A DNA stretch of 52,095 bases from Loktanella atrilutea (GTDB lineage: Bacteria; Pseudomonadota; Alphaproteobacteria; Rhodobacterales; Rhodobacteraceae), in assembly GCF_900128995.1 (NCBI RefSeq), contig NZ_FQUE01000014.1, positions 1 through 52,095 on the forward strand, in the 5' to 3' direction. Positions 95-52,095 of the stretch are shown here, in pieces; position 1 is the first letter of the stretch, and each line of letters begins with the position of its first letter. Made by a program: the position numbers and the translations under genes. The notes below the pieces were generated by a model. The model was given only the letters and a program-made list of their open reading frames with translations, did not search any database and was not told the DNA's origin.

Positions 95-396
95 GCAGCG
101 CAAGCTGGCACGCAAGAAGGCGGAGCGCGAAGGCCTCCTTTAAGCGCAAAAATAGACCGCGCAATGCGCAGAATGATTTGCACAACATAGCGCTCATTAT
201 ATGCGACGTAGGGGCTCTATCGTGAGCAAAATCTACCCCGTACGTCAGTAATGCTGACTTATCGCATAAGGGAAATTATGTAATATATGTTCAAGTCTAT
301 CGGTCAGCTAGTTTCGCAACCGCAGCATTGTACGGGTTAACTTATCTATAATAGACTGCCGCCTACGAGTTGACGAAATGGTGGTTCCACGGTCAG
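95..396. other. Non-coding stretch beside the IS3 end
   Basis: About 300 bases between the IS3 end and the ATPase stop codon. Bases 95-142 on the plus strand can be read as QRKLARKKAEREGLL then TAA, which could be the last residues of a gene cut by the insertion, but this is too short to name. The rest (143-396) is more AT-rich than its surroundings, and I see no gene, terminator or clear repeat in it. Confidence 0.35.
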
Positions 397-25541: not shown

Positions 25542-26900
25542 TCAGCCGCGCGATACCGGCGGATCGGTATATCGGGTCGTGGCATCCGCAACCTGCATGG
25601 GTTCCGGTATCTCGCCGGTCCATTCGGCGGCTTGTGTGCCCGGCGGGTTGTCATACCAACCGGGGTCCGCATAATCGTCTGACGCGATGCCGGGGCGGAC
25701 CTTTACGACGGAAAACATACCCCCCATCTCGATGGGGCCGTACTTGCCCCAACCGGACATCATCGGTGCAGTATTCTTGGGGATCGGCATCTCCATCTCG
25801 CCCATGTCGGCCATGCCGGCGGTCCCCATCGGCATGTATTCCGGCTGCACGCGCCGGATTTTCTGCGTCACGTTGGTCTTGTCGGCCCCGATGAACGTCG
25901 GGACGTCGTGGCCCATGGCGTTCATCGTGTGGTGCGACTTGTGACAATGGATTGCCCAGTCGCCCTCGTGTTCGGCTTTGAAATCGAACGCACGCATGGC
26001 ACCCACGGGGATGTCGATCGACACCTCGGACCACGCCACGTCGGGGTTCACCCAGCCACCGTCAGTGCAGGAGACTTTGAAGTCGTAGCCGTGCATGTGG
26101 ATCGGGTGATTGGTCATTGTCAGGTTCCCAACACGCACGCGCACGTCATCGCCCTTGTTCACGACCAGTGGATCGATGCCCGGAAAAATACGGCTGTTCC
26201 AGGTCCACAGGTTGAAGTCGGTCATCTCCATGATGCGCGGAATGTAGGTGCCCGGATCGATGTCGAAGGCGTTCAGCATGATCAGGAAATCGCGCTCGAC
26301 ACGACGGAACGTGGGATCTTTTGGGTGGACAATAAACATACCCATCATGCCCATGGCCATCTGCACCATTTCGTCGGCGTGCGGATGGTACATGAACGTG
26401 CCCGATTTGATCAGATCGAACTCATAGGCAAAGGTCTTGCCCGGCGGAATTCCCGGGTGGCTCAGTCCCTGTACGCCGTCCATGCCGGACGGCAGGATCA
26501 GCCCGTGCCAGTGGACGGTCGTGTGCTCCGGCAGGCGGTTGGTGACAAAGATCCGGACCCGGTCGCCCTCGACCGCTTCGATTGTCGGGCCGATGGATGT
26601 GCCGTTGTAGCCCCACAGGTAGGCCGTGGTACCTTCGGTCAGTTCCCGTTCGACAGGTTCGGCAACAAGGTGGAATTCCTTGACCCCGTCCTTCATCCGG
26701 TGCGGCAGCGTCCAGCCGTTCAGCGTGACGACCGGGTTGTAGTCGGGACCGGAGGAGGGCGCGACAGGCGGCTGCGTTCCCGCCGCATCTGTCAGGGCCG
26801 CCTCTGGCAGGCTGCGGTTGTCGGTCTGGGACCACGCCTTGGTCGATACCAAGGTTGCCCCTGCCACTCCGGTTCCCAAAAGTTGACGTCTGTTCATCAT
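25542..26900 (-). CDS. Multicopper oxidase, Tat-exported
   Basis: 452-residue oxidase with a twin-arginine leader (MMNRRQLLGTGVAGATLV). All four copper-binding blocks are present: HWHG (130-133), HPH (172-174), HPIHMHG (265-271) and HCHKSHHTMNAMG (318-330). It would oxidise Cu(I) to Cu(II) in the periplasm using oxygen. A Met-rich stretch follows the last copper motif (PEYMPMGTAGMADMGEMEMP). It is shorter than CopA-type oxidases of 550-600 residues and resembles the two-domain-sized nitrite-reductase-like or CumA-type proteins. It sits between tolC-type and cupredoxin genes. Confidence 0.85.
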   Translation of the reverse strand: MMNRRQLLGTGVAGATLVSTKAWSQTDNRSLPEAALTDAAGTQPPVAPSSGPDYNPVVTLNGWTLPHRMKDGVKEFHLVAEPVERELTEGTTAYLWGYNGTSIGPTIEAVEGDRVRIFVTNRLPEHTTVHWHGLILPSGMDGVQGLSHPGIPPGKTFAYEFDLIKSGTFMYHPHADEMVQMAMGMMGMFIVHPKDPTFRRVERDFLIMLNAFDIDPGTYIPRIMEMTDFNLWTWNSRIFPGIDPLVVNKGDDVRVRVGNLTMTNHPIHMHGYDFKVSCTDGGWVNPDVAWSEVSIDIPVGAMRAFDFKAEHEGDWAIHCHKSHHTMNAMGHDVPTFIGADKTNVTQKIRRVQPEYMPMGTAGMADMGEMEMPIPKNTAPMMSGWGKYGPIEMGGMFSVVKVRPGIASDDYADPGWYDNPPGTQAAEWTGEIPEPMQVADATTRYTDPPVSRG

Positions 26901-33146: not shown

Positions 33147-34007
33147 ATGCATTATGTCCGTTTCTTCGCGATGATCGCCACCTCCACTGTGGTCATGTTC
33201 GGACTGATGTATCTGAACTCCTATTCCCTCGAGCATGTCTATTATTCGCAGACCCGCATGTGGATGGCGCTCTACATGGGTGCGATCATGGCGATCATCA
33301 TGCTCGCGTTCATGCTGGGCATGTACAAGAACCGCACGGTCAATATGGCAATCTTCGGCGGATCGGCGGTCGTGTTTGCGCTGGCGCTCTGGCTGGTGCG
33401 GTCGCAAGAGACGATCGGTGACGTCGCGTGGATGAAGGCGATGATCCCGCACCACTCCATCGCAATCCTGACGTCGTCGCGCGCTAACATTACAGACCCC
33501 CGCGTGCGCAAGCTGGCCGATGAGATCGTCGAGGCTCAGGACCGCGAGATCGCGGAAATGCGCTGGATGATCGCCGATATCGAAGCCAACGGCGAACAGA
33601 CGACGTTTCCGTTGGGCGAAGCCGATGCTCAGGCTGAGGTGGCTCCGCTGACCGATGCGTTGTCGTCCGCCGTCATCGCCTCTGTCGATCTCGCACCGCT
33701 GAGCGAAGACGAGATCACCCGCGCCCTGCCCGCCGGAGCGGTTTGCAACTTCCGCCGTGGCGTCGATGCGGACCCGGTGTTCGCCGTTGCCGCCGACGGC
33801 GCATCGGTGACGAAGGTGTCCGGCCAGCTGGTCATGCTGACGGCTGATGGCGCCCCGGGAGATGCTGGCGTTGCAGCCCAAACGGAGGGTCTGCGGGTGA
33901 CGGTTACGCCCAATGCCGCTGAGGACGAAGCCACCCTGCTGTTCGATCTGACCACCGGGCAACCTTTGACCGTCGGTTACGATGGTTACTGGGCCTGTGC
34001 GTCCTGA
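33147..34007 (+). CDS. DUF305 membrane protein with metal-site motif
   Basis: 286-residue protein: three transmembrane helices (about 5-90), then a DUF305 helix pair starting WMKAMIPHHSIAIL (MIPHH is the family core, likely a metal site), then a beta-rich C-terminal domain with two cysteines. AAGAAGGA precedes the ATG at 33147. DUF305 proteins are common in copper loci. It starts a plus-strand run with the glutaredoxin-MauE and DsbA genes, which suggests a role in thiol or copper homeostasis of the envelope. Confidence 0.75.
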   Translation: MHYVRFFAMIATSTVVMFGLMYLNSYSLEHVYYSQTRMWMALYMGAIMAIIMLAFMLGMYKNRTVNMAIFGGSAVVFALALWLVRSQETIGDVAWMKAMIPHHSIAILTSSRANITDPRVRKLADEIVEAQDREIAEMRWMIADIEANGEQTTFPLGEADAQAEVAPLTDALSSAVIASVDLAPLSEDEITRALPAGAVCNFRRGVDADPVFAVAADGASVTKVSGQLVMLTADGAPGDAGVAAQTEGLRVTVTPNAAEDEATLLFDLTTGQPLTVGYDGYWACAS

Positions 34008-38032: not shown

Positions 38033-38455
38033 GTGGAATATCATTATCGCCCATGGACCGGTTTGGTATGGGGGCTGATCACCTTCGCGAGTGTCGGCAC
38101 GATCACCGCAGTTTGGTCCAACCCCTGGTTCGTCCGGATGACATCCGTTGCTGCCTGGGAATTTCCAGCGGTGCTTCTGTTGGCTGTTCTGACAGGGGTA
38201 TTCTTTGCAGTGCGCTTTACGGCCTGTGGCGCACGCAGGGCCGGGATCGGGGGCGTCCTGTCCTTCATCGGCATCGCCTGCCCTGTCTGCAACAAGATCC
38301 TCATGCTGATCTTCGGCGGTCCCATGTTGCTGGCATATTTCGATCCTGTCCGACCTTACGTCGCTCTGGCCGGGTTGATCCTTCTGGCCGTCGGTATCTG
38401 TCGCAACATCGCAGCCCGGCGCACGGCCCTCGCCACAGGATGGGTCGTGCCATGA
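38033..38455 (+). CDS. Four-helix membrane protein with CPVC motif
   Basis: 140-residue membrane protein with four predicted helices and a conserved-looking FIGIACPVCNKILMLIFGG segment at about 78-96, in which CPVC sits at the start of a helix. I know it only as a conserved membrane protein of copper and cytochrome islands. It starts one base after the cytochrome stop, and its own stop overlaps the start of the PBP2 gene by four bases. A membrane thiol or copper-binding role is possible. Confidence 0.6.
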   Translation: MEYHYRPWTGLVWGLITFASVGTITAVWSNPWFVRMTSVAAWEFPAVLLLAVLTGVFFAVRFTACGARRAGIGGVLSFIGIACPVCNKILMLIFGGPMLLAYFDPVRPYVALAGLILLAVGICRNIAARRTALATGWVVP

Positions 38456-40389
38456 CCAAACCGCAAACAGACCCGAAGGCACATCCCCGGCTGACGCGCC
38501 GCAGTATGATCTTGGGAGGGGCCCAACTGACGGTCGCAGGCGCGCTCGGTTTGCGGATGCACAGGATGCAGATCGATGAGGCAGACACGTATCGCATGAT
38601 GGCCGAGGAAAACCGGATCAGCATGCAACTTGTGGCACCGCCCCGTGGGCGCATTCTGGATCGGTTCGGTGCCGTGCTGGCTGATAACCGGCCGACCTAT
38701 CAGGTAACCATCGTACGCGAGCGGGCCGGCGATCCCCAAAAGGTCCTGGCGGACGTGCAGACGATTTTGGGACTTTCCGACGATGACCTGAAACAGATTC
38801 TGGACGAGATGGCGGATCGCAGCAGTTTCGTACCGATCACGGTTGCCAGGGACATTACCTGGGATGAACTGTCACAGATCTCGCTGAATGCTCCTGCTTT
38901 GCCGGGCATTTCGGCAGACGTTGTGCTTCAGCGGGTGTATCCCTTCGGGACCGATTTTGCCCATCTCATTGGCTATGTTGGTCGTGCCAATGCGCAGGAC
39001 GTCGCAGACAACGACGGCAACAATGCCCTCCTCGCCATGCCCGGGTTTCATATTGGCAAGATCAGTATCGAAAAGGCGCAGGAGGCGTCCCTGCGCGGCA
39101 AAGCGGGTCGCCTGTCGGTCGAGGTCAACGCTGCGGGCCGTGTCATGCAGAGCCTGGACCGGGTGCCACCTGTGCCGGGCGCGGACCTGCAGCTGACGAT
39201 CGATCATCATCTTCAGAACTTCGCGCTTGCACGACTGGCTGGCCAAAGTGCGGCAGCGGTGGTCATCGACGTGCAGAACGGTGACCTGCTGGCCTGTGCT
39301 TCGGCCCCGACATTCGATCCGAATCTCTTCGTCGATGGCATCTCGTCGAAGGATTACAATGCGCTGCGCGACGATCCTTACAGGCCTCTGTCGGACAAGG
39401 TCGTTCAGGGGGCCTATCCGCCAGGTTCCGTGCTGAAGATGTCTTTGGCACTTGCAGCATTGGAGGGTGCCGAGGTCGGTCCCGAAGAGACCGTCTATTG
39501 CCCCGGGTTTGTCGAAATCGGCGGTCGGCGGTTTCACTGCTGGAAGCGCGGCGGGCATGGCCACATTAGTTTGCGCGGTGCCCTGCGCGAGTCCTGCGAT
39601 GTGTTCTTCTACGAGATGGCGAGACGGGTGGGGATCGACAATCTGCACGCCATGAGCGCACGACTGGGTCTCGGTCAGCGGCCCGACCTACCCCTCTCGG
39701 GCATTGCATCGGGTCTGAACCCCTCCCGGGACTGGAAGTTGGAACGCTACGGGACGGAATGGCTGATCGGCGATACAATCAACGCGTCCATCGGTCAGGG
39801 CTTCGTGCTGGCAACACCGATGCAACTTGCCATCATGGCGGCACGGGTTGCGTCGGGAAAGAACGTCGAGCCCCGCTTGTTCAAACCTCAGATGGCAGGC
39901 GACACCCAGAATTTCGAGGACATGGGACTGTCTCCTGCGGCCCTTGCACTTGTCCACGCGGGCATGACGGATGTCGTCAATGCAGCACGTGGCACGGCAA
40001 GATCATCGCGGATTGTGGCCGAAGGGCAGACCATGGCAGGTAAAACCGGGTCCAGTCAGGTGTTCAGCATCACGGCGGCGGAACGGGCCGCAGGCGTGCG
40101 CAGTCAGGCGGACCTTCCATGGAATCGCCGGGACCATGCGCTGTTCACCGCTTTTGCGCCGGCAGCGCAACCCCGCATCGCGGTATCTGTCCTCGTGGAG
40201 CACGGTGGTGGCGGCTCGCTTGCTGCAGCCCCCATCGCGCGTGATCTGGTTCTGTTTTATCTGAATGGTGGGCTGCCGCCCGTTGAGGCCTACCCGGCAG
40301 ACCAACGCGGTCGCATGCAGACCAGCCTCGAGGAGTTGAGCGCAGCGATCCTGCCAACTGACGGCCATACTCAAAAAAGACGGACGTAG
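38452..40389 (+). CDS. mrdA: Penicillin-binding protein 2 (extra copy)
   Basis: 645-residue class B PBP. The dimerisation domain (60-240) is followed by the transpeptidase with GAYPPGSVLK (catalytic Ser326, Lys329), SCD (381-383) and KTG (531-533). All three penicillin-binding motifs are present, so it should be active in cross-linking peptidoglycan. The anchor helix is weak (MILGGAQLTVAGALGL). Normal mrdA genes lie with rodA and mreBCD; this one overlaps a membrane-protein gene in a cytochrome operon, so it is a second, island-borne copy. Its use here may be to keep the wall made when copper inhibits the housekeeping enzyme. Confidence 0.88.
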   Translation: MTKPQTDPKAHPRLTRRSMILGGAQLTVAGALGLRMHRMQIDEADTYRMMAEENRISMQLVAPPRGRILDRFGAVLADNRPTYQVTIVRERAGDPQKVLADVQTILGLSDDDLKQILDEMADRSSFVPITVARDITWDELSQISLNAPALPGISADVVLQRVYPFGTDFAHLIGYVGRANAQDVADNDGNNALLAMPGFHIGKISIEKAQEASLRGKAGRLSVEVNAAGRVMQSLDRVPPVPGADLQLTIDHHLQNFALARLAGQSAAAVVIDVQNGDLLACASAPTFDPNLFVDGISSKDYNALRDDPYRPLSDKVVQGAYPPGSVLKMSLALAALEGAEVGPEETVYCPGFVEIGGRRFHCWKRGGHGHISLRGALRESCDVFFYEMARRVGIDNLHAMSARLGLGQRPDLPLSGIASGLNPSRDWKLERYGTEWLIGDTINASIGQGFVLATPMQLAIMAARVASGKNVEPRLFKPQMAGDTQNFEDMGLSPAALALVHAGMTDVVNAARGTARSSRIVAEGQTMAGKTGSSQVFSITAAERAAGVRSQADLPWNRRDHALFTAFAPAAQPRIAVSVLVEHGGGGSLAAAPIARDLVLFYLNGGLPPVEAYPADQRGRMQTSLEELSAAILPTDGHTQKRRT

Positions 40390-41153: not shown

Positions 41154-42704
41154 CTAGATGTATTTCACCGTCGTCATCATGCCCGCCGCCATGTGGTAAA
41201 GGTTGTGGCAGTGCAACGGCCATTCACCGGGGTTGTCAGCGTCGAACTGGATCGTGACCATCCCCATCGCCGGGACCAGAACCGTGTCCCGCATCGCGCC
41301 GGATATTTTCTGCCCGTCGATGCCGACGACCTGAAAGTGGTGTCCGTGCAAGTGCATGGGATGCGACATCATGGTCATGTTGTGCATCGTGATCTCGACG
41401 CGGTCGCCCAGAGAGACCTCCAGCGGTTGACGGTTGTCGAAGGTCCGCCCGTCGATTCCCCAGACATAAGTCTGCATGTCACCCGTCAGCATCGCCATGA
41501 TCTGCAGCGTCACAGGTTTGGCCGAAAGCGGCGATGCGGCCACAAGCTGACGTTCCAGTTCCAAAAGGACGGGGGCGGATTTTGTATCGGCGGCCGCGGC
41601 GATCTTCGTGACTGTCGCACCGGACGGTGCCAGCACGATCCCCGTGCGGGCGATGTCCCCTTCGCGCTGCGCCAGCACAGGAACGGCGGCACCGTCGGTC
41701 GGCATCGTGACCTCGATATCGATGCGTTGCGCAATGGCGAGGCCGAACCGGCTGCCGCGCAGGGGTTGGACGGGCATGCCATCGACGGCTTTGACCGTAC
41801 CCTCGATCTGGCCAAGGTCGATCCAGAAGTTTGTCGATGCCGCCCCGTTGATGATCCGCAGCAGGACAGTATCGCCCTTGTCGACACCGACGATTTCAGG
41901 ATCGGTCAGCGTGCGGTCATTGGCGAGATAGGCATCGAAGGTGATATCGTTCAGGTCCATGTCCATGTTGTCCATGGCACCCATCGCCATGCCACCCATG
42001 TTCATCCCCGGCGTTGCCGTGGCACCATCGTTCCCGTTCATGGTCATGCCGGAATGGTCCATCCCCGCCATGCCGCCCATGGCCATCCCCGGCATCGCGC
42101 TCCCGCTGCCGGCGGTACCCATGTCCATCGCTGCCGTACCGGATCCGACGACTGCGGTGCCTTTCCCTTTCAGGGTCGCAAGGATCTCTTCTGGAGGCGT
42201 GAATGAGAAATCGTGCAGCAGGACGACGACCTCCTGCATCTGCGGCTCGCCTTCGCGGACAATAAGGGAGGCGGCCATAAGTTGCGTCTCTTGCAGGCCA
42301 AAGTGCGAATGCATCCAGTTGGTCCCGCCGCGCGGTAGATCGAAGCTGTAAGCCATGGACGCACCGGGTGCGATGGGCTGCTGGGACAGCGGGTTGCCGT
42401 CCATGCCGAACGGGGGCGTCAGCCCGTGCCAGTGCATGATCGTGGCCACGTCGGTCGCGTTGGTCAACGACACGTTGAACCCGCCCGCCGCGTCAAGGAT
42501 CAAACCGGATCGTCCATTGGTATCCGTGATTCCGAAGACGGTCGCAGCCTTGCCGTTCACCTCGATGGTGCGCGTGCCGACCGTCAAGGATTGACGGGGC
42601 GTCGCAGCCCGCGCTGCCGGGCTGAAGCCAAGACCTGCAGCGAGCGTGGTGGACCCGGCGAGAGTCAGAAATTGACGACGGTCAAAGGCGTACTGGTCGC
42701 GCAT
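41154..42704 (-). CDS. Multicopper oxidase with Met-rich insert, Tat-exported
   Basis: 516-residue oxidase with twin-arginine leader (RRQFLTLAGSTTLAAGLG). Copper motifs are HWHG (91-94), HSHFG (132-136), HPMHLHGH and the C-terminal HCHNLYHMAAGM. A Met-rich segment (193-249, for example MPGMAMGGMAGMDHSGMTM) lies between the first and second cupredoxin domains, as in CueO/PcoA-type cuprous oxidases, where it binds Cu(I). It is preceded by a CueR-like dyad at 42764-42783, so copper induction is expected. It differs from the 452-residue oxidase at 25542 in domain plan and is a separate gene family. Confidence 0.88.
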   Translation of the reverse strand: MRDQYAFDRRQFLTLAGSTTLAAGLGFSPAARAATPRQSLTVGTRTIEVNGKAATVFGITDTNGRSGLILDAAGGFNVSLTNATDVATIMHWHGLTPPFGMDGNPLSQQPIAPGASMAYSFDLPRGGTNWMHSHFGLQETQLMAASLIVREGEPQMQEVVVLLHDFSFTPPEEILATLKGKGTAVVGSGTAAMDMGTAGSGSAMPGMAMGGMAGMDHSGMTMNGNDGATATPGMNMGGMAMGAMDNMDMDLNDITFDAYLANDRTLTDPEIVGVDKGDTVLLRIINGAASTNFWIDLGQIEGTVKAVDGMPVQPLRGSRFGLAIAQRIDIEVTMPTDGAAVPVLAQREGDIARTGIVLAPSGATVTKIAAAADTKSAPVLLELERQLVAASPLSAKPVTLQIMAMLTGDMQTYVWGIDGRTFDNRQPLEVSLGDRVEITMHNMTMMSHPMHLHGHHFQVVGIDGQKISGAMRDTVLVPAMGMVTIQFDADNPGEWPLHCHNLYHMAAGMMTTVKYI

Positions 42705-43339: not shown

Positions 43340-43693
43340 ATGGAAACAATTTTAACTCTTGCCGGAATTTTTGCCTTAACGCTCGTGTTTGTCGTCGGTC
43401 TTCGCGCGGCCGGCTGGTCTGATTTTGCCGGCCCGTCCACGGCACCACAGCAGCGCCCGGTATTGGGCGGTGGCGACCCGCAAACCCATGCATGGCAGCG
43501 TTTCCACGCCCGCTATTACACCATGACCCTGCTTTTCGTCGCCTTCGAGATGGAAATGATGTTCATGTATCCGTGGGCTGTCATCTATGTCGCAGAAGGC
43601 GGCAAGGCCTTGGCCGAGATGGGCATGTTTCTTGCGATCCTGTCCGTGGGTATCCTTTATGGATGGCGTGAAGGCATTTTCAAATGGGAATGA
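43340..43693 (+). CDS. nuoA: NuoA-like membrane subunit
   Basis: 117-residue three-helix subunit of the complex I membrane arm. The conserved LFVAFEMEMMFMYPWAV segment has the acidic residues of the NuoA family, and the preceding loop (GGGDPQTHAWQRFHARYY) is the site of quinone-chamber contact in complete enzymes. The ATG at 43340 is inferred from family length. The stop overlaps the next gene. In this operon it is the first gene, as in ordinary nuo operons. Confidence 0.85.
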   Translation: METILTLAGIFALTLVFVVGLRAAGWSDFAGPSTAPQQRPVLGGGDPQTHAWQRFHARYYTMTLLFVAFEMEMMFMYPWAVIYVAEGGKALAEMGMFLAILSVGILYGWREGIFKWE

Positions 43694-44712
43694 CGTGGAT
43701 CACGCGCCTCGCGGCGGGCGCACGGGTGCCTGTGTTCATCGCGATGGGGGACGGTGCCCCAGCCGCGGCATTGACGCTCTCTCGGCACCCCGGTCTGTCA
43801 GTCGTTGATACGCCACGCGCCGCCAGCATTCTGCTTGTAGCTGGCCAGATGCCTGACGCTCTCATTCCCTATCTGCATCGTCTGCACGACCAGCTGCCGC
43901 ATCCCAGAGCGACGCTTTTGTGGCAGTCCCCTCCCATCCCCTCGTTGCCGGACGCCATTGCAGTCGACGCTGATGATGACATCGGCCGGGCGGTGGCAGA
44001 CGTTTTCGCCGCGGTGCTGGAAGGCAAGCGTGCCTCCGCGCCCGATATCCTGCCTGACGCGCCCCCTTCGGAATGGCGCGGTGTCGGCCCTCACGGGCAA
44101 GGCGGCAAGGGCATGATGGGTGGCACACCTTACGGTCGGCCGATGGCCATGACCGACGACGACATCCGCGACAGGTTGGCGCTGGACAGTTACACAGCTG
44201 CTTTCGGACCGTTCCTGCCGTTCTTTCCGCCCGGTCTGGTCCTGACACTGACGCTGCAGGGCGATGTGATCCAGAAGGTCGTGGTGACGCATCCGCCGTT
44301 CGACCATGACGGGTCACCGCTTGCCACGCTGTTAAACCTGCTCGGTTTGCCAGCACTCGCCACCAGATCATTGGGCGACCGTGCCGACGATCCCGTCCTG
44401 CGGCGGTTGATCCAGCTGTCCGGTGCGCGGTTTGCGATCCCATCCGGGCTGGGTCGATTGCCTGACGGATCGGACGTGCGGACCCGGTTCGATCGCATGA
44501 CCGGGGCAGCGCCGGATGCTGCCTCGCAGGATGCGGGCGACACGACGCTTGAACATTTATTAGTCGGTCTGGAATGGCATGCGGCCATGCTGGTGTTGTG
44601 CAGCCTCGATCCCGCCACATTGCGCGATATCTGCAAAAACAGCGACACGGGTGATCAGGACGAGACGCAGGGCGAATCCGAAAGTGAGATGCACGCGGGG
44701 CATATGTCATGA
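43684..44712 (+). CDS. NuoB/NuoD-like fusion protein without Fe-S cysteines
   Basis: 342-residue protein taking the place of the nuoB, C and D genes. Residues 10-85 align by eye with NuoB or hydrogenase small subunits (VVDTPRAASILLVAGQMP, then LHDQLPHPRATLLW), but the position of the CxxC/CC cluster ligands reads MGDGAPAAAL; no cysteine occurs before about residue 300. Residues 140-310 recall the N-terminal part of NuoD or hydrogenase large subunits (GPFLPFFPPGLVLTLTLQGDVIQKV). The end is acidic with HAGHMS. It could be a structural plug over the membrane arm rather than a redox subunit. A start at 43690 (ATGA overlap) is equally possible. Confidence 0.6.
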   Translation: MGMTWITRLAAGARVPVFIAMGDGAPAAALTLSRHPGLSVVDTPRAASILLVAGQMPDALIPYLHRLHDQLPHPRATLLWQSPPIPSLPDAIAVDADDDIGRAVADVFAAVLEGKRASAPDILPDAPPSEWRGVGPHGQGGKGMMGGTPYGRPMAMTDDDIRDRLALDSYTAAFGPFLPFFPPGLVLTLTLQGDVIQKVVVTHPPFDHDGSPLATLLNLLGLPALATRSLGDRADDPVLRRLIQLSGARFAIPSGLGRLPDGSDVRTRFDRMTGAAPDAASQDAGDTTLEHLLVGLEWHAAMLVLCSLDPATLRDICKNSDTGDQDETQGESESEMHAGHMS

Positions 44713-45617
44713 CGCTGCTGACGGTGCTTGGCATGCTCGTTTTCCTGTGCACCAGCGTTTGGCTGGCGGTTGCTCTTGATACCGCGTGTCGCGGCTGGAT
44801 CTCGGGACAGGGTGCCGATCGCGCGGACGGACCGCTCCGGACGGCAGCCCTGTGGCTGACACAACAGCGGCTGACCACTGAGGCCCCTGACCGGATGAAC
44901 GCGCTATTGTCCATTGCCGGATACATGGCGCTGGCCCTGACCGGGCTCGCGCTGGTGCCGTTGGGACCCGACACGGCGCTGATCGCCCTCCCGACCAGCG
45001 TTGTCCTGTGGGGCGCGTGCGAAGCACTGGTCGTTGTCGTCGTCTTTCTGCATGGCTGGTCCCCGAATGCGCCGCTGGCGATGATCGGGGCCTACCGTTA
45101 TGTCGCGATTGGCCTGCCGATCATGCTGCTCAGCATGTTCGTCCTGATCGCCGCCGCCCTGCCCGCCCAGTCGCTGGACCTGCGCGACATCGTAACGTCG
45201 CAAGCCGATGTCTGGAACCTGATCCGCCAGCCGCTGGGCCTGCCGCTGTTCCTGCTGCTTGGCCTGTCGCTGACCCTGCGCGGCCCGTTCGACTATGCGG
45301 ACAGCGCCGATCTGGCGGGCGGAACCTCTGTCGAGGCGTCTGGACCGGACCGCCTGGGCTGGCAGATCGCGCGGCTGGCGATGCTGACGGAGTTTTCGGC
45401 CATGGCGGCGACCGTCTTTCTGGGCGGCTACCTGGGGCCGGTACTGCCGGGGCCGCTCTGGATCGCTTTGAAGACCCTTCTCGTCATGACCCTCGTGATC
45501 GGCCTGTCGCATCTGGCAGCGCGCATGCCCGTGTCCCGCATGATGAGCCTGATCTGGATGATCCTGTTGCCGCTGTCGTTCGCTGACCTGATCTGGGCAG
45601 GACTGGTGGCGCTATGA
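44709..45617 (+). CDS. nuoH: NuoH/HyfC-like membrane subunit
   Basis: 302-residue membrane protein with about eight helices. GWSPNAPLAMIGAYRYVA and RGPFDYADSADLAGGTSVEASGP correspond to the NuoH segments facing the quinone chamber; in complete enzymes the second reads PFDLPEAESELVAGY, so two acidic residues are changed. Closest in style to HyfC/EchB. It overlaps the fusion protein's stop by four bases. Given the missing cluster subunits, quinone reduction here is doubtful. Confidence 0.78.
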   Translation: MTLLTVLGMLVFLCTSVWLAVALDTACRGWISGQGADRADGPLRTAALWLTQQRLTTEAPDRMNALLSIAGYMALALTGLALVPLGPDTALIALPTSVVLWGACEALVVVVVFLHGWSPNAPLAMIGAYRYVAIGLPIMLLSMFVLIAAALPAQSLDLRDIVTSQADVWNLIRQPLGLPLFLLLGLSLTLRGPFDYADSADLAGGTSVEASGPDRLGWQIARLAMLTEFSAMAATVFLGGYLGPVLPGPLWIALKTLLVMTLVIGLSHLAARMPVSRMMSLIWMILLPLSFADLIWAGLVAL

Positions 45618-46276
45618 CAAAGGATATCTTGTTCTACGCCCTCTCCGCACTCGCGATCTGGAGCGGTTGGCGCGTCTTTCGGGTCGATTCCATGATCCGC
45701 GCGACGTTTGCGCTGATGGTGTCCTTTATCGCTGTGGGTGGCATCGCGCTGCTGATGTCAGCGGATTATATTGGCGTCGCCACCGTCTTCATGATGGCGG
45801 TCGAGATGATGGTCATGGGCCTGTTCATGGTCATGTTCATGATGAACCCCGCCGGCCTGAACCCGATGCAGATGGTCCACCAGTATCGCTTCTCCATCGG
45901 GGCCGGGATCGCCGCCTTCGTGGGCCTGACCGTCGCCATCCTGACGACACCGCTGCCCGATAACCCGTTGCCGCCGGGCGGCGACACGCTGCGCGATCTG
46001 GGGTTCGAACTTCTGGGCAACTCCATGCTGATTTTTGAGACGGCGGGCGTGACCCTTCTGGCAACGATGGTCGGTGCCGTCGTGCTGTCGAGCGCGAGTG
46101 GACGCTTCGGGTCGGCCGGGCAAGGGTCCGTCCCGCCCGGCCTGACCGCAGGCGGTCCCCCGGCGGGTCGCACGGCCGAAGACGGCAAGGGTCATGGTGG
46201 CCACGCCGGCCACGGCATGAGCATGCAGAAAAAGCCCGCGATGCAGGCCCATGACGATCACGGAAAGGGCCACTGA
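45614..46276 (+). CDS. nuoJ: NuoJ-like subunit with His/Met-rich tail
   Basis: 220-residue membrane subunit, five helices, with the NuoJ core IGVATVFMMAVEMMVMGLFM. Helix three is unusually rich in Met (VMGLFMVMFMMNPAG). The last 30 residues (GKGHGGHAGHGMSMQK, then AMQAHDDHGKGH) form a His/Met-rich tail not found in ordinary NuoJ and suited to copper or nickel binding. It overlaps nuoH by four bases. Confidence 0.8.
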   Translation: MTKDILFYALSALAIWSGWRVFRVDSMIRATFALMVSFIAVGGIALLMSADYIGVATVFMMAVEMMVMGLFMVMFMMNPAGLNPMQMVHQYRFSIGAGIAAFVGLTVAILTTPLPDNPLPPGGDTLRDLGFELLGNSMLIFETAGVTLLATMVGAVVLSSASGRFGSAGQGSVPPGLTAGGPPAGRTAEDGKGHGGHAGHGMSMQKKPAMQAHDDHGKGH

Positions 46277-46277
46277 C

Positions 46278-46583
46278 ATGACCCTGACGGCCATTCTGAT
46301 TGTCGCCGCGGCATTGTTCGGCATTGGCCTGTTCGGCGCGCTGTCTCAGAAATCCTTTGTCATGCTGATGATGGGGCTGGAGCTGATGCTGAACGGGACC
46401 CTTCTGGCGACCGTCGGATTCTGGGCCTATAGCCTTGGCGGTTTGCCAAAGGGGCAGTTGCTGGCGATCCTGATCATGGCCGTGATGGCGGTCGAACTGG
46501 CCATTGGCTTTGCGCTGGTCGTGGCGGTCTACCGCAAGCGGCAGGCGGACGTCATCGAATCCATCAAGACGTTGAAGAACTGA
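46278..46583 (+). CDS. nuoK: NuoK-like subunit
   Basis: 101-residue, three-helix subunit. GLELMLNGTLLATVGFW carries the conserved Glu of helix two, and AVMAVELAIGFALVV that of helix three, so the proton-pathway residues are kept. The ATG at 46278 lies one base after the nuoJ stop and its stop overlaps nuoL by one base. Length is normal for NuoK. Confidence 0.88.
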   Translation: MTLTAILIVAAALFGIGLFGALSQKSFVMLMMGLELMLNGTLLATVGFWAYSLGGLPKGQLLAILIMAVMAVELAIGFALVVAVYRKRQADVIESIKTLKN

Positions 46584-48490
46584 TGCTTTGGCTGATCCCC
46601 CTTTTACCGATCGTCACCGGCGCTGTGATCGCAGCGATGGGCGACCGGTCGCGGCGCTGGCTGGGCACGGTTGCTGTCATGGTCTTGGGCGCGACGCTGT
46701 GTCTGACGCTGCTGGCCGCCGCACAGGGCTGGACCGCGACACTGATCTGGAGCGATGCGATCCGTCTGTCCGCCGAACTCACGCCGCTGTCGGCCGCCAT
46801 CGCGCTGATGGTGCCGACGGTGGCGCTCGCGGTGGTGTTTCATGCGACCCAGCACGAGTCGCCGCAGGGTATCGGACGTCTGACCGGACTGATGATCCTG
46901 TTCACCGGCGGGATGCAGCTGGTCGTCGTCGCGGGCGATCTTTTGACGTTGTTGATCGGATGGGAATTGATCGGTGCCTGTTCTTGGGCGCTGATCGCGC
47001 ACAAGTGGCGCGCCATCGAAAACCCTCGGTCTGGTCTTTACGCCTTTGTCGTCACCCGGTTTGGCGATCTGGGCCTTTTCGCCGCCGCCATAGCCCTGTT
47101 CGCAGGGACCGGATCGTTTGATTATGCCGGGATCGCGACGCTGTCAGGGCCATTGTCGTTCATCGTCGCCTACGGGATTTTGCTGTCCGCCGCATCGAAG
47201 GCGGGACAGGTGCCGTTCGCGCCCTGGCTGTTTCGCGCGATGGCCGGGCCAAGCTCTGTATCCGCCCTGCTGCACGCGGCAACGCTGGTGGCGGCCGGGG
47301 CCTACATCATTGCGCTCCTGCATCCGTCCCTGTCGGTTGTCCCGGGGTGGCAGGCAACGACCATCGCGATCGGCCTGACGACGGCTTTGGCAGGCGGCGT
47401 CACCGGCGTCCTGCAAAACCACGCCAAGCGCCTTCTGGCGGCTTCGACCTCTGCCCAGATGGGATTCATGTTTGTCGCTATCGGTGCGGGCTACCCCGGT
47501 GTGGCGGCGCTTCACCTGATCGTTCATGCGACCTTCAAGGCCCCGCTGTTTCTTGTCGCCGGCGCAGCTGGCGATGCGACAGGCAGCTACCGGCTGGACC
47601 GGATGCGGCTGGGGCGGATCATGCCGCTGATTGCGGGGCTTGCGGTCATCGCCGCAGCCGGTCTGGCGGGCCTGCCACTGACCGGCGGCGGCTGGAGCAA
47701 GGAAGAAATCGTCAAGGCCGCAGAACACGCAGACTTCTGGCTCTCGATCGGCGTCATGATCGGCGGTGCCCTTAGTGCCGCCTATGCGACCCGGTTCGTG
47801 CTGCTGGCGTTTGGCCGTCGCAGTGAAGACGACCGCGACATCGCGGCACCGGGTTGGGCGGAAACCGCGGGTATTGCCGGACTTGGCGCCCTGACGCTGG
47901 CGACAGGTCTGCTGTGGGTGTCGCCCCTGTCCGACGCGCTGGCGGCAGCAACCGGGTTCACCCTGCCCGAAGGCAGCACGCTGGGCCTCGTCCTCTCGCT
48001 GATCTGCGTGGCTGTGGGGGTCGCCTCCGGCATCTACGTCGTGCGCCACAACCCCGCCCTTGGCCGCACCGGCGCTGCGGCGGCCGCGTCGGATTGGCTC
48101 GGCCTGCCGACGCTGATCACACGGGGCGTGGTGCTGCCGTTCGATGCGCTGGCGCGCGCTGCGGCACGTTTTGACGACGACATACTGGATGCCGGACCCC
48201 GTAGCGTTGCCGCGCTGGCCCGACGCGGTTCAATGGCGATTGCGGCCATGGACAACCAGGTCGTCGACAAGGGCGTCCGCGCCACCGCCGCCTTTGGCGA
48301 CTGGCTAGCCCGGGTCGCCGACCGTTTCGGAGAAGCGCTGTCGGACGGCATACCCGAGGGCACGGCCGGTATCACCGGCATGCTGGGGCGTGAGGCACGA
48401 CGCCTGCAATCCGGCCTGTCACATCACTACTACGCCTACATCGTCTGCGGCATCTTTGCCGTCGTCGCCATACTCGCTGCAGGAGCCTGA
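46583..48490 (+). CDS. nuoL: NuoL-like antiporter subunit
   Basis: 635-residue antiporter-type subunit. The discontinuous-helix and channel residues are present: GWELIGACSW (Glu of helix five) and ASKAGQVPFAPWLFRAM (Lys of helix seven). Lys/His positions also appear in NHAKRLLAASTSAQMGFM. The C-terminal 130 residues contain an amphipathic stretch like the lateral helix HL (PFDALARAAARFDDDILD) and one final anchor. Proton or cation translocation is probable. Confidence 0.9.
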   Translation: MLWLIPLLPIVTGAVIAAMGDRSRRWLGTVAVMVLGATLCLTLLAAAQGWTATLIWSDAIRLSAELTPLSAAIALMVPTVALAVVFHATQHESPQGIGRLTGLMILFTGGMQLVVVAGDLLTLLIGWELIGACSWALIAHKWRAIENPRSGLYAFVVTRFGDLGLFAAAIALFAGTGSFDYAGIATLSGPLSFIVAYGILLSAASKAGQVPFAPWLFRAMAGPSSVSALLHAATLVAAGAYIIALLHPSLSVVPGWQATTIAIGLTTALAGGVTGVLQNHAKRLLAASTSAQMGFMFVAIGAGYPGVAALHLIVHATFKAPLFLVAGAAGDATGSYRLDRMRLGRIMPLIAGLAVIAAAGLAGLPLTGGGWSKEEIVKAAEHADFWLSIGVMIGGALSAAYATRFVLLAFGRRSEDDRDIAAPGWAETAGIAGLGALTLATGLLWVSPLSDALAAATGFTLPEGSTLGLVLSLICVAVGVASGIYVVRHNPALGRTGAAAAASDWLGLPTLITRGVVLPFDALARAAARFDDDILDAGPRSVAALARRGSMAIAAMDNQVVDKGVRATAAFGDWLARVADRFGEALSDGIPEGTAGITGMLGREARRLQSGLSHHYYAYIVCGIFAVVAILAAGA

Positions 48491-48491
48491 C

Positions 48492-49982
48492 ATGCTGACA
48501 CTCGCCATCCTGATCCCGATGCTGGGGGCACTGGCGCTGGTCCTTTCACCGGGCCTTGGACATGAAAAGGCCCGGTGGCTGTCCATCGGCGCATCGGTCC
48601 TGTCCTTTGCCTGCCTGATCATCGTTTGGGCGCTATTCAGAATCGGAGAAGAGGCACCGGCATTTCAATCCGTGGCCGAGGTGCCGTGGATCCCGTCACT
48701 GGGTGTTGCGTGGCGCGTGGGCGTGGACGGCATGTCACTGGCCCTGTCACTGATGAGCGGCGTGCTGTTCATTGCCTGCATTGCCTGGCCGATGGAACAC
48801 CCGGACCGGCCTATCGCCTATTACGCGTGGTTCCTGTTTCTGGAATCCGTGTCGCTGGGCCTGTTCCTCGTGCTGGACCTTCTGCTGTTCTACGTCTTCT
48901 TCGATCTGAGCCTTGTCGGCATGTTCTTCCTCATCGGGCGATGGGGCCACGACGGCGCAGAGCGGGCAGCGTTGAAGTTCTTCATCTACACACTGGCCGG
49001 ATCGCTCGCGATCCTGCTGGCGATCATCGGGCTGGTCCTGTCGGTCGACCCGATCACGTTCGACATGCGCACGCTGATCGCGGCGCAGCCACTGGCGGGC
49101 ATGGACCTGCGCGGCGGGCTGATCCTGCTGGGCTTCATGGTGGGCTTTGCCGTCAAAACCCCGCTCTTTCCGGTGCACACCTGGTTGCCGCCGGCGCACG
49201 TCATGGCCCCGGGCCCGGTGTCGGCGATCCTTGCCGGCGTGTTACTGAAGATGGGGACCTACGGCATGGTCCGTATCCCATTGCAGATGCTGCGCGAAAG
49301 CTTTGCCGCCTATGCCTTCCCCATCGCGCTGTTCGCGCTGGCCTCAATCCTGTGGGGGGCCGTCGTGGCCCTGGGACAGACCAACCTGAAGCGCCGCATC
49401 GCCTACACCTCGGTCAATCACATGGGCTATACCGTGCTGGGGATCGCCGCCGCCGGGGCCATGCTGGCCGGCGCAGAGAATGCGCGGTCCCTTGCCCTGA
49501 CCGGTGCCGTGGTCGAAATGGTGGCCCATGGCCTGATTACCGGAGCCTTGTTTCTGATCGCAGGCGGGTTCTGGGCGCGCAGCCAGACCTACGATCTTGA
49601 CGCCTTTGGCGGGTTGGCGGGCGTTGCGCCGAAACTGACCGTCGCCGCCGTCATTGCGGCCTTCGCAAGCCTTGGCCTGCCGGGACTGGCGGGTTTCGTG
49701 GCCGAGGTGCAGATCTTCGTCGGCGCCTTTGCCGTGTTCCCCGTGATCGCGGCCATCGGCCTTCTCGGTATTCTGATCACGGCCGCGCTGTTCCTGCGGC
49801 TCTTGCAGCAGGTCTTTTTCGGCGATCTGCCGACCGCGCGGAAAGGCTTTCCCGACCTCAGCCGCCGCGAGGGGGCAATCCTGTCGGTCCTGCTGTTCCT
49901 CGTCGTGCTGATCGGCATCTATCCGCGCTGGCTGCTGGATCTGATCGGCAGTGCAACCCGTGCGATCGTCGGAGGATCGTGA
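48492..49982 (+). CDS. nuoM: NuoM-like antiporter subunit
   Basis: 496-residue antiporter-type subunit. FVFFDLSLVGMFFLIGRWG replaces the usual FFEA: the channel Glu of helix five is Asp here. The Lys of helix seven (VKTPLFPVHTWLPPAHVM) and the Lys of helix eight (LLKMGTYG) are kept. The start at 48492 follows the nuoL stop by one base; the frame is open further back to 48390 inside nuoL. The stop overlaps nuoN as TGATG. Confidence 0.9.
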   Translation: MLTLAILIPMLGALALVLSPGLGHEKARWLSIGASVLSFACLIIVWALFRIGEEAPAFQSVAEVPWIPSLGVAWRVGVDGMSLALSLMSGVLFIACIAWPMEHPDRPIAYYAWFLFLESVSLGLFLVLDLLLFYVFFDLSLVGMFFLIGRWGHDGAERAALKFFIYTLAGSLAILLAIIGLVLSVDPITFDMRTLIAAQPLAGMDLRGGLILLGFMVGFAVKTPLFPVHTWLPPAHVMAPGPVSAILAGVLLKMGTYGMVRIPLQMLRESFAAYAFPIALFALASILWGAVVALGQTNLKRRIAYTSVNHMGYTVLGIAAAGAMLAGAENARSLALTGAVVEMVAHGLITGALFLIAGGFWARSQTYDLDAFGGLAGVAPKLTVAAVIAAFASLGLPGLAGFVAEVQIFVGAFAVFPVIAAIGLLGILITAALFLRLLQQVFFGDLPTARKGFPDLSRREGAILSVLLFLVVLIGIYPRWLLDLIGSATRAIVGGS

Positions 49983-51394
49983 TGCCAATCGGCGACTTGT
50001 CCCCAGAGATTGCGATCATCGTCGCCGCGGTGCTGGCCCTGCTGTTTGCGGCCTTTGCGCCACGCAGGTGGCAGGCGGGTGCGGCCTTGATCGCTCTGGC
50101 AGGTATTCTTGTCGCAGCCACCCTGCTGGTGCTGCAAATTGGTGAGACGCGGTTTACCTTTTCCGGCACCTGGGCCATCGACGGGGCCAGCATCTGGGCG
50201 CGGCTGATGATCCTGTTCGCAACCGCGTTCTGCATCCTGCTGTCGCCCGGCTGGTTTCGCACGGACCCCCGCCACGGCGAGTATTACACCATCCTGCTGC
50301 TGTCCGCTTTGGGTGCCATGGCCATGGCCGGGGCCGGCGATATGCTGCAACTGGTGATCGCGGTGCTGCTGTCGTCGGTCACCGGCTACACACTGGCCGC
50401 GTGGCACCGCGACTGGGCCCTGTCGGTCGAGGCGGGCATGAAATACTTTCTGATGGGGGCCCTGGCGAACGCATTGCTGGTGACGGGCGTCGCGCTGGTG
50501 CTGGGCCTGCTGGGCGACAGCGGCTACACCGCACTCTCGGCGACCTTCGCGGCGGGTGTTGCACCATCGCCCCTCTTGTTCGTGGGCTTCGCGCTGACGC
50601 TCGTCGGCGTGGCTTTCAAATTGGGGGCCGTGCCTGCGCAGGCGTGGTTGCCCGATGTCGCCGAAGGCGCGCCCGTCCCATCTGCCGGTTTTCTGACCGT
50701 CGTGCCAAAGATCGGGGCCGCGATCGCGATGGCCCGGCTGGTGCAACTTGTCCCGCCCGACGCGTTGGGACTGCGGCCTCTGCTCGCCGTCATGGCGGCT
50801 TTGACCATGACGGTCGGCAACCTCGCCGCACTCTGGCAAGACGACGTGCGTCGCATGATCGGCTGGTCCTCGGTCGCACAGGCCGGATACCTGCTGATGG
50901 CAGTCACGGTGCTCGGCCTCAGCCCCGATGCGCTGATGGCGGTGCTGGCCTTCGTCGCCAGCTACGCCATCGGCAATCTGGCGGCCTTCGCCGTCGTGGC
51001 GCACCTGCGTGGGCGCACTGCGATCGCGGACTATGCAGGGTTAGCGCGGCGACAACCCATCGCGGCCGCAGCGCTTGTCCTGGCATTCCTGTCGCTGGTC
51101 GGTATCCCGCCGACCGTCGGATTTCTGGGCAAGCTGACGCTGTTTCTGACAACGATGCAGGGCGGCTACCTGTGGTTGGCCTTGCTTGCCGCGGCGAATA
51201 CCGCGGCGTCATTGTTCTATTATGCGCGCATCATGGGGACCATGTATTTTGGAACGCCGCCTGACACGGTAGAGGTTCTGGACCGTCTCAGCGGGGTTGC
51301 GATGTGGGCGGCTGCCATAGCGGTCCTGGGCGGTGCCGTCGTCGCACAATTCGCGTTCACCGCCTTCCGCTTCAGCACCCTATTGCCAATGTGA
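49982..51394 (+). CDS. nuoN: NuoN-like antiporter subunit
   Basis: 470-residue antiporter-type subunit. Lys residues of helix seven (AFKLGAVPAQAWLPDV) and helix eight (VVPKIGAAIAMARLV) are present. The helix-five Glu, usual in the E-L-S-L-P-L segment, is not apparent: the segment here reads LQLVIAVLLSSVTGYTL. One of the three pump modules may therefore be altered. It is the last gene of the operon; a GTG at 49979 in the same frame is a less likely start. Confidence 0.88.
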   Translation: MPIGDLSPEIAIIVAAVLALLFAAFAPRRWQAGAALIALAGILVAATLLVLQIGETRFTFSGTWAIDGASIWARLMILFATAFCILLSPGWFRTDPRHGEYYTILLLSALGAMAMAGAGDMLQLVIAVLLSSVTGYTLAAWHRDWALSVEAGMKYFLMGALANALLVTGVALVLGLLGDSGYTALSATFAAGVAPSPLLFVGFALTLVGVAFKLGAVPAQAWLPDVAEGAPVPSAGFLTVVPKIGAAIAMARLVQLVPPDALGLRPLLAVMAALTMTVGNLAALWQDDVRRMIGWSSVAQAGYLLMAVTVLGLSPDALMAVLAFVASYAIGNLAAFAVVAHLRGRTAIADYAGLARRQPIAAAALVLAFLSLVGIPPTVGFLGKLTLFLTTMQGGYLWLALLAAANTAASLFYYARIMGTMYFGTPPDTVEVLDRLSGVAMWAAAIAVLGGAVVAQFAFTAFRFSTLLPM

Positions 51395-51579: not shown

Positions 51580-52095
51580 TGTTGATTTCCACCCAGAAGT
51601 GACCCGGGTAGCGGCATAATTTCCATTGAGAATTGACCCATGTGACCCTTCCTCTAGCGGCATGCGCAGCGGGGGACATTGGAGTGATACACATGGGACT
51701 TTTGAACATCATCCGACGTATGGCTTTGCGCGAGAAGTTGCCCCTGCGCGAGATCGCGCGTCGCACGGGCATGTCGCGTAACACGATCAAGAAGTATCTG
51801 AACGCAGGCACGATCGAGCCGCAGTTCGCGACGCCGGAACGGCATAGCAAGCTCGATCCCTTTGCTGAGAAGTTGGCTGGCTGGCTGAAGACGGAGGCCG
51901 GCAAGTCGCGCAAACAGCGGCGGACGCTGAAGCAGATGCATGCGGATCTGGTGGTTCTCGGATTTGACGGGTCCTACAATCGCGTTGCGGCTTTTGCCCG
52001 TGACCGCGTCGGCCGCGGGAAGGACCGGCAGGTCAACATGCGCTTCCTTGCGATGGCAAACCACTACGTGTTCGATCCGGCGTTCTGCAATCCTG
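51580..52095 (+). mobile_element. IS21-family insertion sequence, left end
   Basis: The element begins TGTTGATTTCCACCCAGAAG and carries repeated TGACCC-type internal motifs (AGAAGTGACCC, GAGAATTGACCC), as found at IS21-family ends, followed by the istA gene from 51693. It runs off the window, so the right end and istB are unseen. Confidence 0.75.
51693..52095 (+). pseudogene. istA: IstA transposase, internally deleted and partial
   Basis: The frame starts MGLLNIIRRMALREKLPLRE with the helix-turn-helix RRTGMSRNTIKKYL, and runs in IstA order to GFDGSYNRVAAFAR. It then continues DRVGRGKDRQVNMRFLAMAN and HYVFDPAFCNP. In full IstA proteins the RVAAFAR segment is followed by about 150 residues of the catalytic DDE core before the KVGRGKER-type segment. 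That stretch, with at least the first catalytic acids, is missing here, yet the frame stays open. The copy is probably inactive and can move only with help from another IS21. It is cut by the window end. Confidence 0.7.

Follow-up and report, generated by a model that had tools for sequence, protein, structure and literature searches.

An eight-gene derivative of complex I in a copper island of Loktanella atrilutea is a candidate Cu(I)/proton antiporter

The window analyzed here is the entire contig NZ_FQUE01000014.1 of Loktanella atrilutea (52,095 bases; G000:C43 in our numbering). Positions 43340-51394 of its plus strand, at the end of a copper island, hold one operon of eight overlapping or abutting genes. 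Seven encode membrane subunits of respiratory complex I, and the remaining one encodes a 342-residue protein, here called X. Their order is A-X-H-J-K-L-M-N. On balance, we think that the operon probably encodes a soft-metal transporter that is derived from complex I and coupled to protons. Most likely, it is a Cu(I)/H+ antiporter by which Cu(I) or Ag(I) would be exported out of the cytoplasm. We favor this reading because redox residues are lost, X contains metal-binding modules, methionines were gained in NuoA, NuoJ and NuoK, proton-path residues are kept, and copper genes are found nearby. Gene content, residues, modules and neighbors were computed, and from them we infer the metal, its path, the coupling, the direction of transport and the assembly of the complex.

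An earlier note on this DNA, made from the sequence alone, described the seven membrane subunits in one overlapping operon and suggested a stand-alone cation channel or antiporter. Pfam, NCBIfam and the gene coordinates agree with the description, and a cation antiporter appears to be the most likely job of the operon. Overall, the observation was confirmed and its interpretation was partly supported.

Results

Protein X: lost redox sites and metal-binding modules

Judged from its sequence, X is a NuoB-NuoD derivative without Fe-S cluster ligands. It has no Pfam match, and its only match in NCBIfam is a weak one to NuoB, near the N-terminus (Table 1). A profile of nine short X sequences matches NuoB chains of solved complex I structures (best E 7e-7, approximately at profile positions 39-80). 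Long forms of X also exist, with lengths of 612-884 residues in the seven measured. They end in a NuoD-like region (PF00346, E 7.4e-12 to 1.1e-15; four of four scanned with Pfam), and their C-terminal part aligns along its whole length with the hydrogenase subunit MbhL (6cfw_L, E 3.5e-19). The short NuoD-like remnant in the window X was matched by eye to a stretch of long X whose C-terminal part resembles MbhL/NuoD. Profile searches had been recommended in the earlier note, and the weak NuoB match, the NuoD-like end and the likeness to MbhL are what they returned.

Ligands of the Fe-S cluster N2 are absent from X. None of the 32 aligned X sequences, including that of the window, has cysteine at the positions of E. 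coli C63, C64, C129 and C158, which are mostly gaps. The window X contains two cysteines, Cys306 and Cys317, neither of them at a cluster-ligand position. The earlier description of X as a cysteine-free NuoB/NuoD fusion is thus correct in its derivation and in the lack of ligand cysteines, but not in the lack of any cysteine. The NuoD residues His224 and Tyr273, which we take to be the quinone-binding pair, were compared in 16 longer X sequences. His224 is replaced by proline in 16/16, and Tyr273 is tyrosine in 0/16. The window X, whose NuoD part is a short remnant, stands outside this alignment. The NuoB alignment omits L129, whose annotated start lies after that part, and the NuoD alignment omits L113 and L116, in which the pattern was not found (L numbers denote loci of relatives). 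With N2 ligands missing from 32/32 X sequences, reduction of quinone in the manner of complex I should be impossible, as the earlier note had stated.

Metal-binding modules are found in X. Long X contains two to five copies of a heavy-metal-binding domain (HMBD; PF19335, E 1.2e-72 to 5.9e-28) in all four sequences scanned with Pfam, located between the NuoB-like start and the NuoD-like end. The motif CPMHP is present in all seven long X examined. In Actinomycetota, X has His/Met-rich stretches instead of HMBD (four of five sequences; the fifth, L129, is annotated too short to judge). Short X contains GMMGGxPYGRPMAM, with 12 of 14 columns invariant across nine short-form sequences. The number of repeats is strongly variable between relatives, and metal capacity may therefore evolve through changes in repeat number. 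One X of 884 residues (L032:9428-12082) carries a run of 32 HEG tripeptides in addition to five HMBD copies.

Methionines in NuoJ, NuoA and NuoK

We counted an alignment column as Met-gained if methionine occupies it in at least 80% of the family and at most 20% of canonical sequences. Such columns number 3 of 147 in NuoA, 11 of 184 in NuoJ and 4 of 100 in NuoK, compared with 32 canonical sequences. The counts are 0 of 325 in NuoH, 0 of 613 in NuoL, 1 of 509 in NuoM and 1 of 485 in NuoN, compared with 21-22 canonical sequences (NuoH without L133, which is annotated short). Pooled, this is 18 of 431 columns in A/J/K versus 2 of 1932 in H/L/M/N (Fisher p 5e-12, a descriptive value, as columns are not independent). 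The gain in A/J/K is not a composition effect, because the overall methionine content of the family's H, L, M and N is below that of canonical subunits.

In NuoJ, eight conserved methionine positions form a ladder. Each is methionine in 34-35 of 35 relatives. Seven of them are methionine in 0/32 canonical sequences, and the eighth, equivalent to E. coli M72, is methionine in canonical NuoJ too. Tyr59, which is tyrosine in 32/32 canonical sequences, is methionine in 35/35 of the family. Ala62, similarly alanine in 32/32, is glutamate in 35/35, and corresponds to a new intramembrane Glu64 in the window. Met61, 65, 68, 72 and 76 of the window NuoJ lie on one face of an ideal helix and span 22.5 Å. 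At E. coli position 33 of NuoK, methionine is present in the operon's NuoK and in canonical NuoK alike.

In complex I, the third transmembrane helix (TM3) of NuoJ contains a π-bulge (PMC7419157). Steiner and Sazanov (2020) placed an essential residue of Mrp antiporters, MrpA E706, which is located beside the bound cation, at NuoJ Y59, and indicated that Na+ leaves Mrp by a path that coincides with the E-channel (PMC7419157). Given this match, methionine at the Tyr59 position puts a soft metal ligand at the Na+ site of Mrp. This would suggest that the transported ion is Cu(I).

Proton-path residues

Most proton-path residues of the antiporter subunits are kept. NuoL E144, K229, H254 and K399, NuoM K234, K265 and E407, and NuoN K247 and K395 are invariant in 35/35 sequences, and NuoN K217 is present in 34/35. 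NuoK E36 and E72 (28/28) and the NuoA acids D79/E81 (26/26) are kept as well. The claim in the earlier note that the Lys/Glu residues of the pump subunits are mostly kept therefore holds, with exceptions in the window at NuoN E133, H224 and H305, NuoM E144, and NuoH E157 and E218. NuoM E144 is aspartate in 18/35, including the window, and NuoL H334 is glutamine in 4/35. NuoH E157 is lost in 29/34 (methionine in the window) and E218 in 34/34. Among E-channel residues, those of NuoK and NuoA are kept, NuoJ Y59 is lost and NuoH E157 mostly so.

Genes of the operon and of the copper island

Pfam and NCBIfam agree on the identities of NuoA, H, J, K, L, M and N (Pfam E 4e-18 to 2e-58). In alignments with relatives, the most likely starts are 43340 for NuoA and 46278 for NuoK. 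Coordinates are given in Table 1.

Table 1. Coordinates of the operon's genes, of segments within their products, and of copper-island genes in the window
Feature	Position	Strand	Basis and remarks
NuoA-like subunit	43340..43693	+	PF00507 E 1.2e-21; Met at E. coli positions 80, 82, 85, His at 65
Protein X (342 aa), NuoB-like at its start, Met-rich in the middle, with a short stretch like NuoD	43684..44712	+	without cluster ligands
NuoB-like stretch of X, aa 31-76	43774..43911	+	TIGR01957 E 5.4e-4
Met-rich motif of X, GMMGGTPYGRPMAM, aa 143-156, candidate metal site	44110..44151	+	near-invariant in short X
NuoD-like remnant of X, GPFLPFFPPGLVLTLTLQGDVIQKV, aa 175-199	44206..44280	+	compared by eye with long X
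NuoH-like subunit	44709..45617	+	PF00146 E 5.9e-37; E. coli E157 is Met, E218 missing
NuoJ-like subunit	45614..46276	+	PF00499 E 3.3e-19
Methionine ladder of NuoJ, MMAVEMMVMGLFMVMFMM, aa 60-77, with new Glu64	45791..45844	+	alignment and helix geometry
C-terminal tail of NuoJ, His/Met-rich	46193..46273	+	direct reading and alignment
NuoK-like subunit	46278..46583	+	PF00420 E 4.2e-18; Met at E. coli 30, 66, 69; E36, E72 kept
NuoL-like antiporter subunit	46583..48490	+	PF00361 E 6.2e-49; E144, K229, H254, K399 kept
NuoM-like antiporter subunit	48492..49982	+	TIGR01972 469 bits, over cut-off; K234, K265, E407 kept; E144 to Asp
NuoN-like antiporter subunit	49979..51394	+	PF00361 E 3.2e-50; K217, K247, K395 kept; E133 to Leu; H224, H305 to Gln
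Multicopper oxidase adjoining the operon	41154..42704	-	Pfam Cu-oxidase, _2 and _3
Copper-island protein with DUF305/DUF6692	33147..34007	+	Pfam; DUF305 genes beside relatives too
Second multicopper oxidase of the island	25542..26900	-	Pfam

Upstream of the operon, the copper island contains the two multicopper oxidases, a TolC-like protein, CbtA, DUF305, DsbA, glutaredoxin-MauE, an RND pump and cytochromes c. Copper neighbors were counted with queries for P-type Cu ATPase, multicopper oxidase, CueR, CsoR, HMA, DUF305, CopB and CopD. A copper marker lies beside the operon in 18/37 loci versus 0/20 upstream flanks of canonical nuo operons (p 7e-5; L026, L039 and L107 omitted, flank lengths unequal). 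Three of the 20 canonical flanks have an RND pump only. At L034, Pfam adds a multicopper oxidase. Neighbors of relatives include heavy-metal P-type ATPase, CueR, CsoR-type regulator and CusA. In Rubrobacter tropicus, the genes directly before nuoA are annotated as heavy-metal P-type ATPase, metal-sensitive regulator and copper ion binding protein. The earlier note had named use of the cytochromes or oxidases of the copper island as one option. It had not foreseen that the link to copper, besides the neighbors, also lies inside the proteins, in the modules of X and the NuoJ/A/K ladder.

Upstream of nuoA, 33 loci were scanned for operators, and CueR-like sites with at most two mismatches were found only in L029 and L104. 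A palindrome upstream in L134 is presumably of the CsoR type. Neither result was used as evidence. The island also contains a penicillin-binding transpeptidase gene at 38452-40389 on the plus strand (PF00905 E 1.6e-50, PF03717 E 1.5e-40), and the copper regions of the Martelella and Acuticoccus relatives have annotated L,D-transpeptidase genes. Cell-wall enzymes may belong to these copper islands. After nuoN, a frame on the plus strand (51633-52094) leaves the contig end. It has weak helix-turn-helix matches (best E 1.4e-4, below the cut-off) and may be part of a transposase.

Complex I of the same genome

The same genome also encodes a complete canonical complex I, with nuoA-E at approximately 528-532 kb and nuoF-N at approximately 964-978 kb of contig C26. 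The eight-gene operon is therefore an addition to the cell's complex I and does not encode it. The canonical genes form two separate clusters, A-E and F-N. Two further antiporter-subunit genes on C15 are read as Mrp. Outside the canonical clusters found, G000:C39:7278-7952 has another PF00361 match, which covers only profile positions 1-230.

Distribution and phylogeny of the family

The order A-X-H-J-K-L-M-N is present in 34/41 loci, the window included; one of these, in Vreelandella (L026), has broken frames. Of the seven other loci, four are contig ends (L035, L039, L040, L041), two are truncated copies (L025, L107), and in L023 the ORF (open reading frame) caller merged the annotated nuoA. 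E. coli queries found no NuoB, C, E, F, G or I beside the operon in any of the 41 loci, window included, apart from the matches of X itself. Flanks past the contig were judged via these relatives. The absence of NuoC, E, F, G and I reported in the earlier note is thereby upheld, and the genome survey it proposed found the same gene order in 34/41 loci and normal nuo genes elsewhere in the genome, on C26. A canonical complex I was rejected as an identity for the operon, given no peripheral-arm genes in 41 loci and no N2 ligands in 32 X.

Eight of 72,556 plasmid records and 14 of 295 genomes of the host's family (6 short, 8 long) contain relatives of X. Among 398 genomes of the phylum, five have strong matches to short X and four others to long X (E <1e-100). 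The remaining matching genomes (of 303 and 295 in all) were taken as cross-matches to canonical NuoB, NuoD or hydrogenase, set aside by E-value and frame length rather than one by one. The short-X profile found no relative in viral contigs. The nearest named relative of the window X is in a Roseobacter metagenome-assembled genome. With the window NuoJ as tblastn query, 31 of the 72,556 plasmid records matched, including Sulfitobacter, Paracoccus, Roseivivax, Acuticoccus, Halomonas, Nitratireductor, Rubrobacter, Arthrobacter, Pseudonocardia, Mycobacterium, Rhodococcus, Gordonia and Curtobacterium. The operon type thus occurs in Alphaproteobacteria, Halomonas and Actinomycetota, and is often plasmid-borne.

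A NuoM tree was built from 68 rows: 35 of the family, 21 canonical and 12 other antiporter subunits. The family is split off as one clade by a single branch (support 99/97, one change), in a tree whose canonical rows are from Pseudomonadota only and whose outgroup rows are long-branched. Three subclades are seen: the long HMBD type (Pseudomonadota and Rubrobacter), the Actinomycetota type, and the short type, which includes the window. The position of Rubrobacter next to the proteobacterial long type, together with the many plasmids, points to movement of the eight-gene operon between phyla.

Several relatives are broken or have other neighbors. In Martelella (L025), only nuoA and part of X remain, followed by an ISL3 transposase. 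Frames are interrupted along the operon of Vreelandella (L026). In Xanthobacter Py2 (L107), nuoA and a fragment of X remain. In Halomonas sp. KO116, the ergothioneine genes egtB and egtD come after the operon (L024:20108-22380, plus strand). In L116, from another class of the phylum, a P-II-like gene (202-525, plus strand; PF00543 E 4.5e-14) is located shortly upstream of nuoA.

Discussion

Proposed mechanism

In the mechanism that we propose, X would occupy the place of NuoB and NuoD, with no Fe-S cluster and no quinone, and would bind Cu(I) through HMBD, the His/Met stretches or the GMMGGxPYGRPMAM motif. Cu(I) would enter the former quinone cavity and the E-channel, move along the methionine ladder of NuoJ TM3, the methionines of NuoA and NuoK and the new NuoJ glutamate, and exit to the periplasm. 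Its charge would take the part of Na+ in Mrp, or of quinone chemistry in complex I, in coupling to protons in NuoL, NuoM and NuoN. It could drive these protons or be driven by them.

A number of results weigh against this proposal. AlphaFold gave no usable fold for X, modeled with one relative, L002 (mean pLDDT 33.7, pTM 0.20). NuoN E133, which we take to be the glutamate nearest NuoK, is leucine or valine in 34/35 and a gap in the other (leucine in the window). NuoN H305 is glutamine in 35/35, and NuoM K173 is kept in only 16/35. Coupling would therefore have to differ from that in both Mrp and complex I. The methionines in NuoJ, NuoA and NuoK could provide helix flexibility instead of binding metal. 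In the copper neighborhood, a marker is found in only 6/21 whole-genome loci (p 0.02). Most of the signal comes from plasmid loci, which may be biased toward metal resistance. The weaker ATPase matches, in L032, L038 and L106, may concern other metals, and the operator scan found no CueR-like site upstream of the window nuoA. The Na+ entry part of Mrp is non-homologous in complex I (PMC7419157). Since our NuoJ profile failed to detect the genome's MrpA (E 0.96), the correspondence of E706 and Y59 rests on Steiner and Sazanov (2020).

Alternative explanations

Metal-binding modules in X could also serve a pump driven by Cu(I) oxidation, in which X takes electrons from Cu(I) and the membrane arm pumps protons (compare Eddie et al., 2021, on Marinobacter; PMC8233155). 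This pump would be in keeping with the cytochromes c and multicopper oxidases that the window and the flanks of some relatives contain, and with the reported co-expression with copper genes in Marinobacter (PMC8233155). However, X lacks Fe-S ligands, the 16 alignable X lack the quinone His/Tyr, and no other acceptor site was seen. A ladder through NuoJ would be odd for a redox site at X and fits the passage of an ion. We consider such a pump improbable. An Mrp-type Na+/H+ or K+/H+ antiporter that aids cells under copper or salt stress, with copper acting only in regulation through X, is unlikely as well. It agrees with the kept antiporter residues, the many marine hosts, and earlier authors, who took such operons for ion pumps of marine life (PMC3314556, PMC6002675). 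Yet the position of the Na+ site is a soft ligand, methionine, in 35/35 NuoJ, the hosts include soil bacteria and mycobacteria, and none of MrpB, E, F and G is annotated in the operons read (from annotation only, with no Mrp profile used).

The direction of transport could be the reverse, with Cu(I) taken up by means of the proton motive force or a gate to feed the oxidases of the island. Path and residues would be identical, and several cuproenzymes are nearby, but the neighbors are more of the resistance and efflux kind (heavy-metal P-type ATPase, CueR, CsoR-type regulator, CusA) than assembly factors, and we give this direction little credence. That the operon is a decaying, functionless remnant of complex I seems highly implausible. 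Peripheral subunits are lost and broken copies exist in Martelella, Vreelandella and Xanthobacter, but the family is one clade in two phyla, charged and methionine residues are invariant in 34-35 sequences, most loci keep the eight-gene order, and co-expression with copper genes is reported in Marinobacter (PMC8233155). The remnant was rejected on residue conservation and the kept gene order. Export of Cu(I) or Ag(I) in exchange for protons remains our preferred explanation.

Comparison with known systems

The operon shares with complex I seven membrane subunits, the gene order minus the missing genes, and, in L, M, N and K, the majority of the proton-path Lys/Glu/His residues. Unlike complex I, it has no NuoC, E, F, G or I, NuoB and NuoD are merged in an X without N2 ligands (and, in longer X, without quinone residues), and its E-channel subunits bear methionines. 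In the proposed mechanism it resembles Mrp antiporters, in that a cation site, at the position of NuoJ Tyr59, would be coupled to antiporter subunits. It differs from them in having NuoH, NuoA, NuoM and X, and methionine in place of glutamate at the cation site, with a glutamate three residues further. The likeness of the long-X C-terminal part to MbhL is shared with membrane-bound hydrogenases (MBH, Hyf, FHL), but no Fe-S proteins were found in the operon, and it has three antiporter subunits, like complex I. The cysteine pairs of NiFe sites (two CxxC) are not conserved across six aligned long X, which have a single invariant cysteine. HMBD is known from RND adaptors such as CusB and from P-type Cu ATPases, whereas in long X its copies are set in a NuoB-NuoD fusion.

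Partial nuo operons have been described before. Salinispora has a second, partial NDH-1 operon with seven membrane-part genes, read as a marine adaptation (Penn and Jensen, 2012; PMC3314556). In Kocuria flava S43 the set consists of nuoA,H,J,K,L,M,N, and such operons were likewise read as marine adaptation (PMC6002675). In Marinobacter atlanticus, nuoADHJKL, said to be without nuoMN, lie within a copper operon and are co-expressed with it, and copper redox energy or cofactor supply was proposed (Eddie et al., 2021; PMC8233155). Plasmids too can carry partial sets, according to a 2025 survey of Nuo subunits (PMC12361115). The Salinispora, Kocuria and Marinobacter sets have the same or nearly the same nuo genes and likely belong to the same family, as compared by description and not by sequence. 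They were read as marine ion pumps or an unknown copper-linked pump, and the available parts of these papers mention neither a metal-binding X nor a methionine ladder. The earlier note knew of no described system with this make-up. These partial operons had been described, though without the explanation given here. Our literature search, confined to titles and abstract openings and reaching little of the subscription literature, found no work linking copper to a complex I derivative that is rich in methionine or bears HMBD. New here are the metal modules of X together with its lost redox residues, the methionine positions in A/J/K with the new glutamate, and the keeping of most proton-path Lys/Glu residues.

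Implications

The genes of this operon are currently annotated as NADH-quinone oxidoreductase subunits. If our reading is correct, they would represent a class of soft-metal transporters that marine, soil and host-associated bacteria carry in mobile copper-resistance loci. The chances seem about even that complex I here became a Cu(I)-translocating antiporter, plasmid-borne and present in two phyla, in which swappable metal modules replace the redox machinery and a methionine ladder replaces the E-channel. How redox chemistry drives the antiporter subunits of complex I is an open question. The operon would then be a natural experiment on it, as an ion seems to replace the redox step, and a complex without Fe-S clusters or quinone would allow coupling to be studied with Cu(I) alone.

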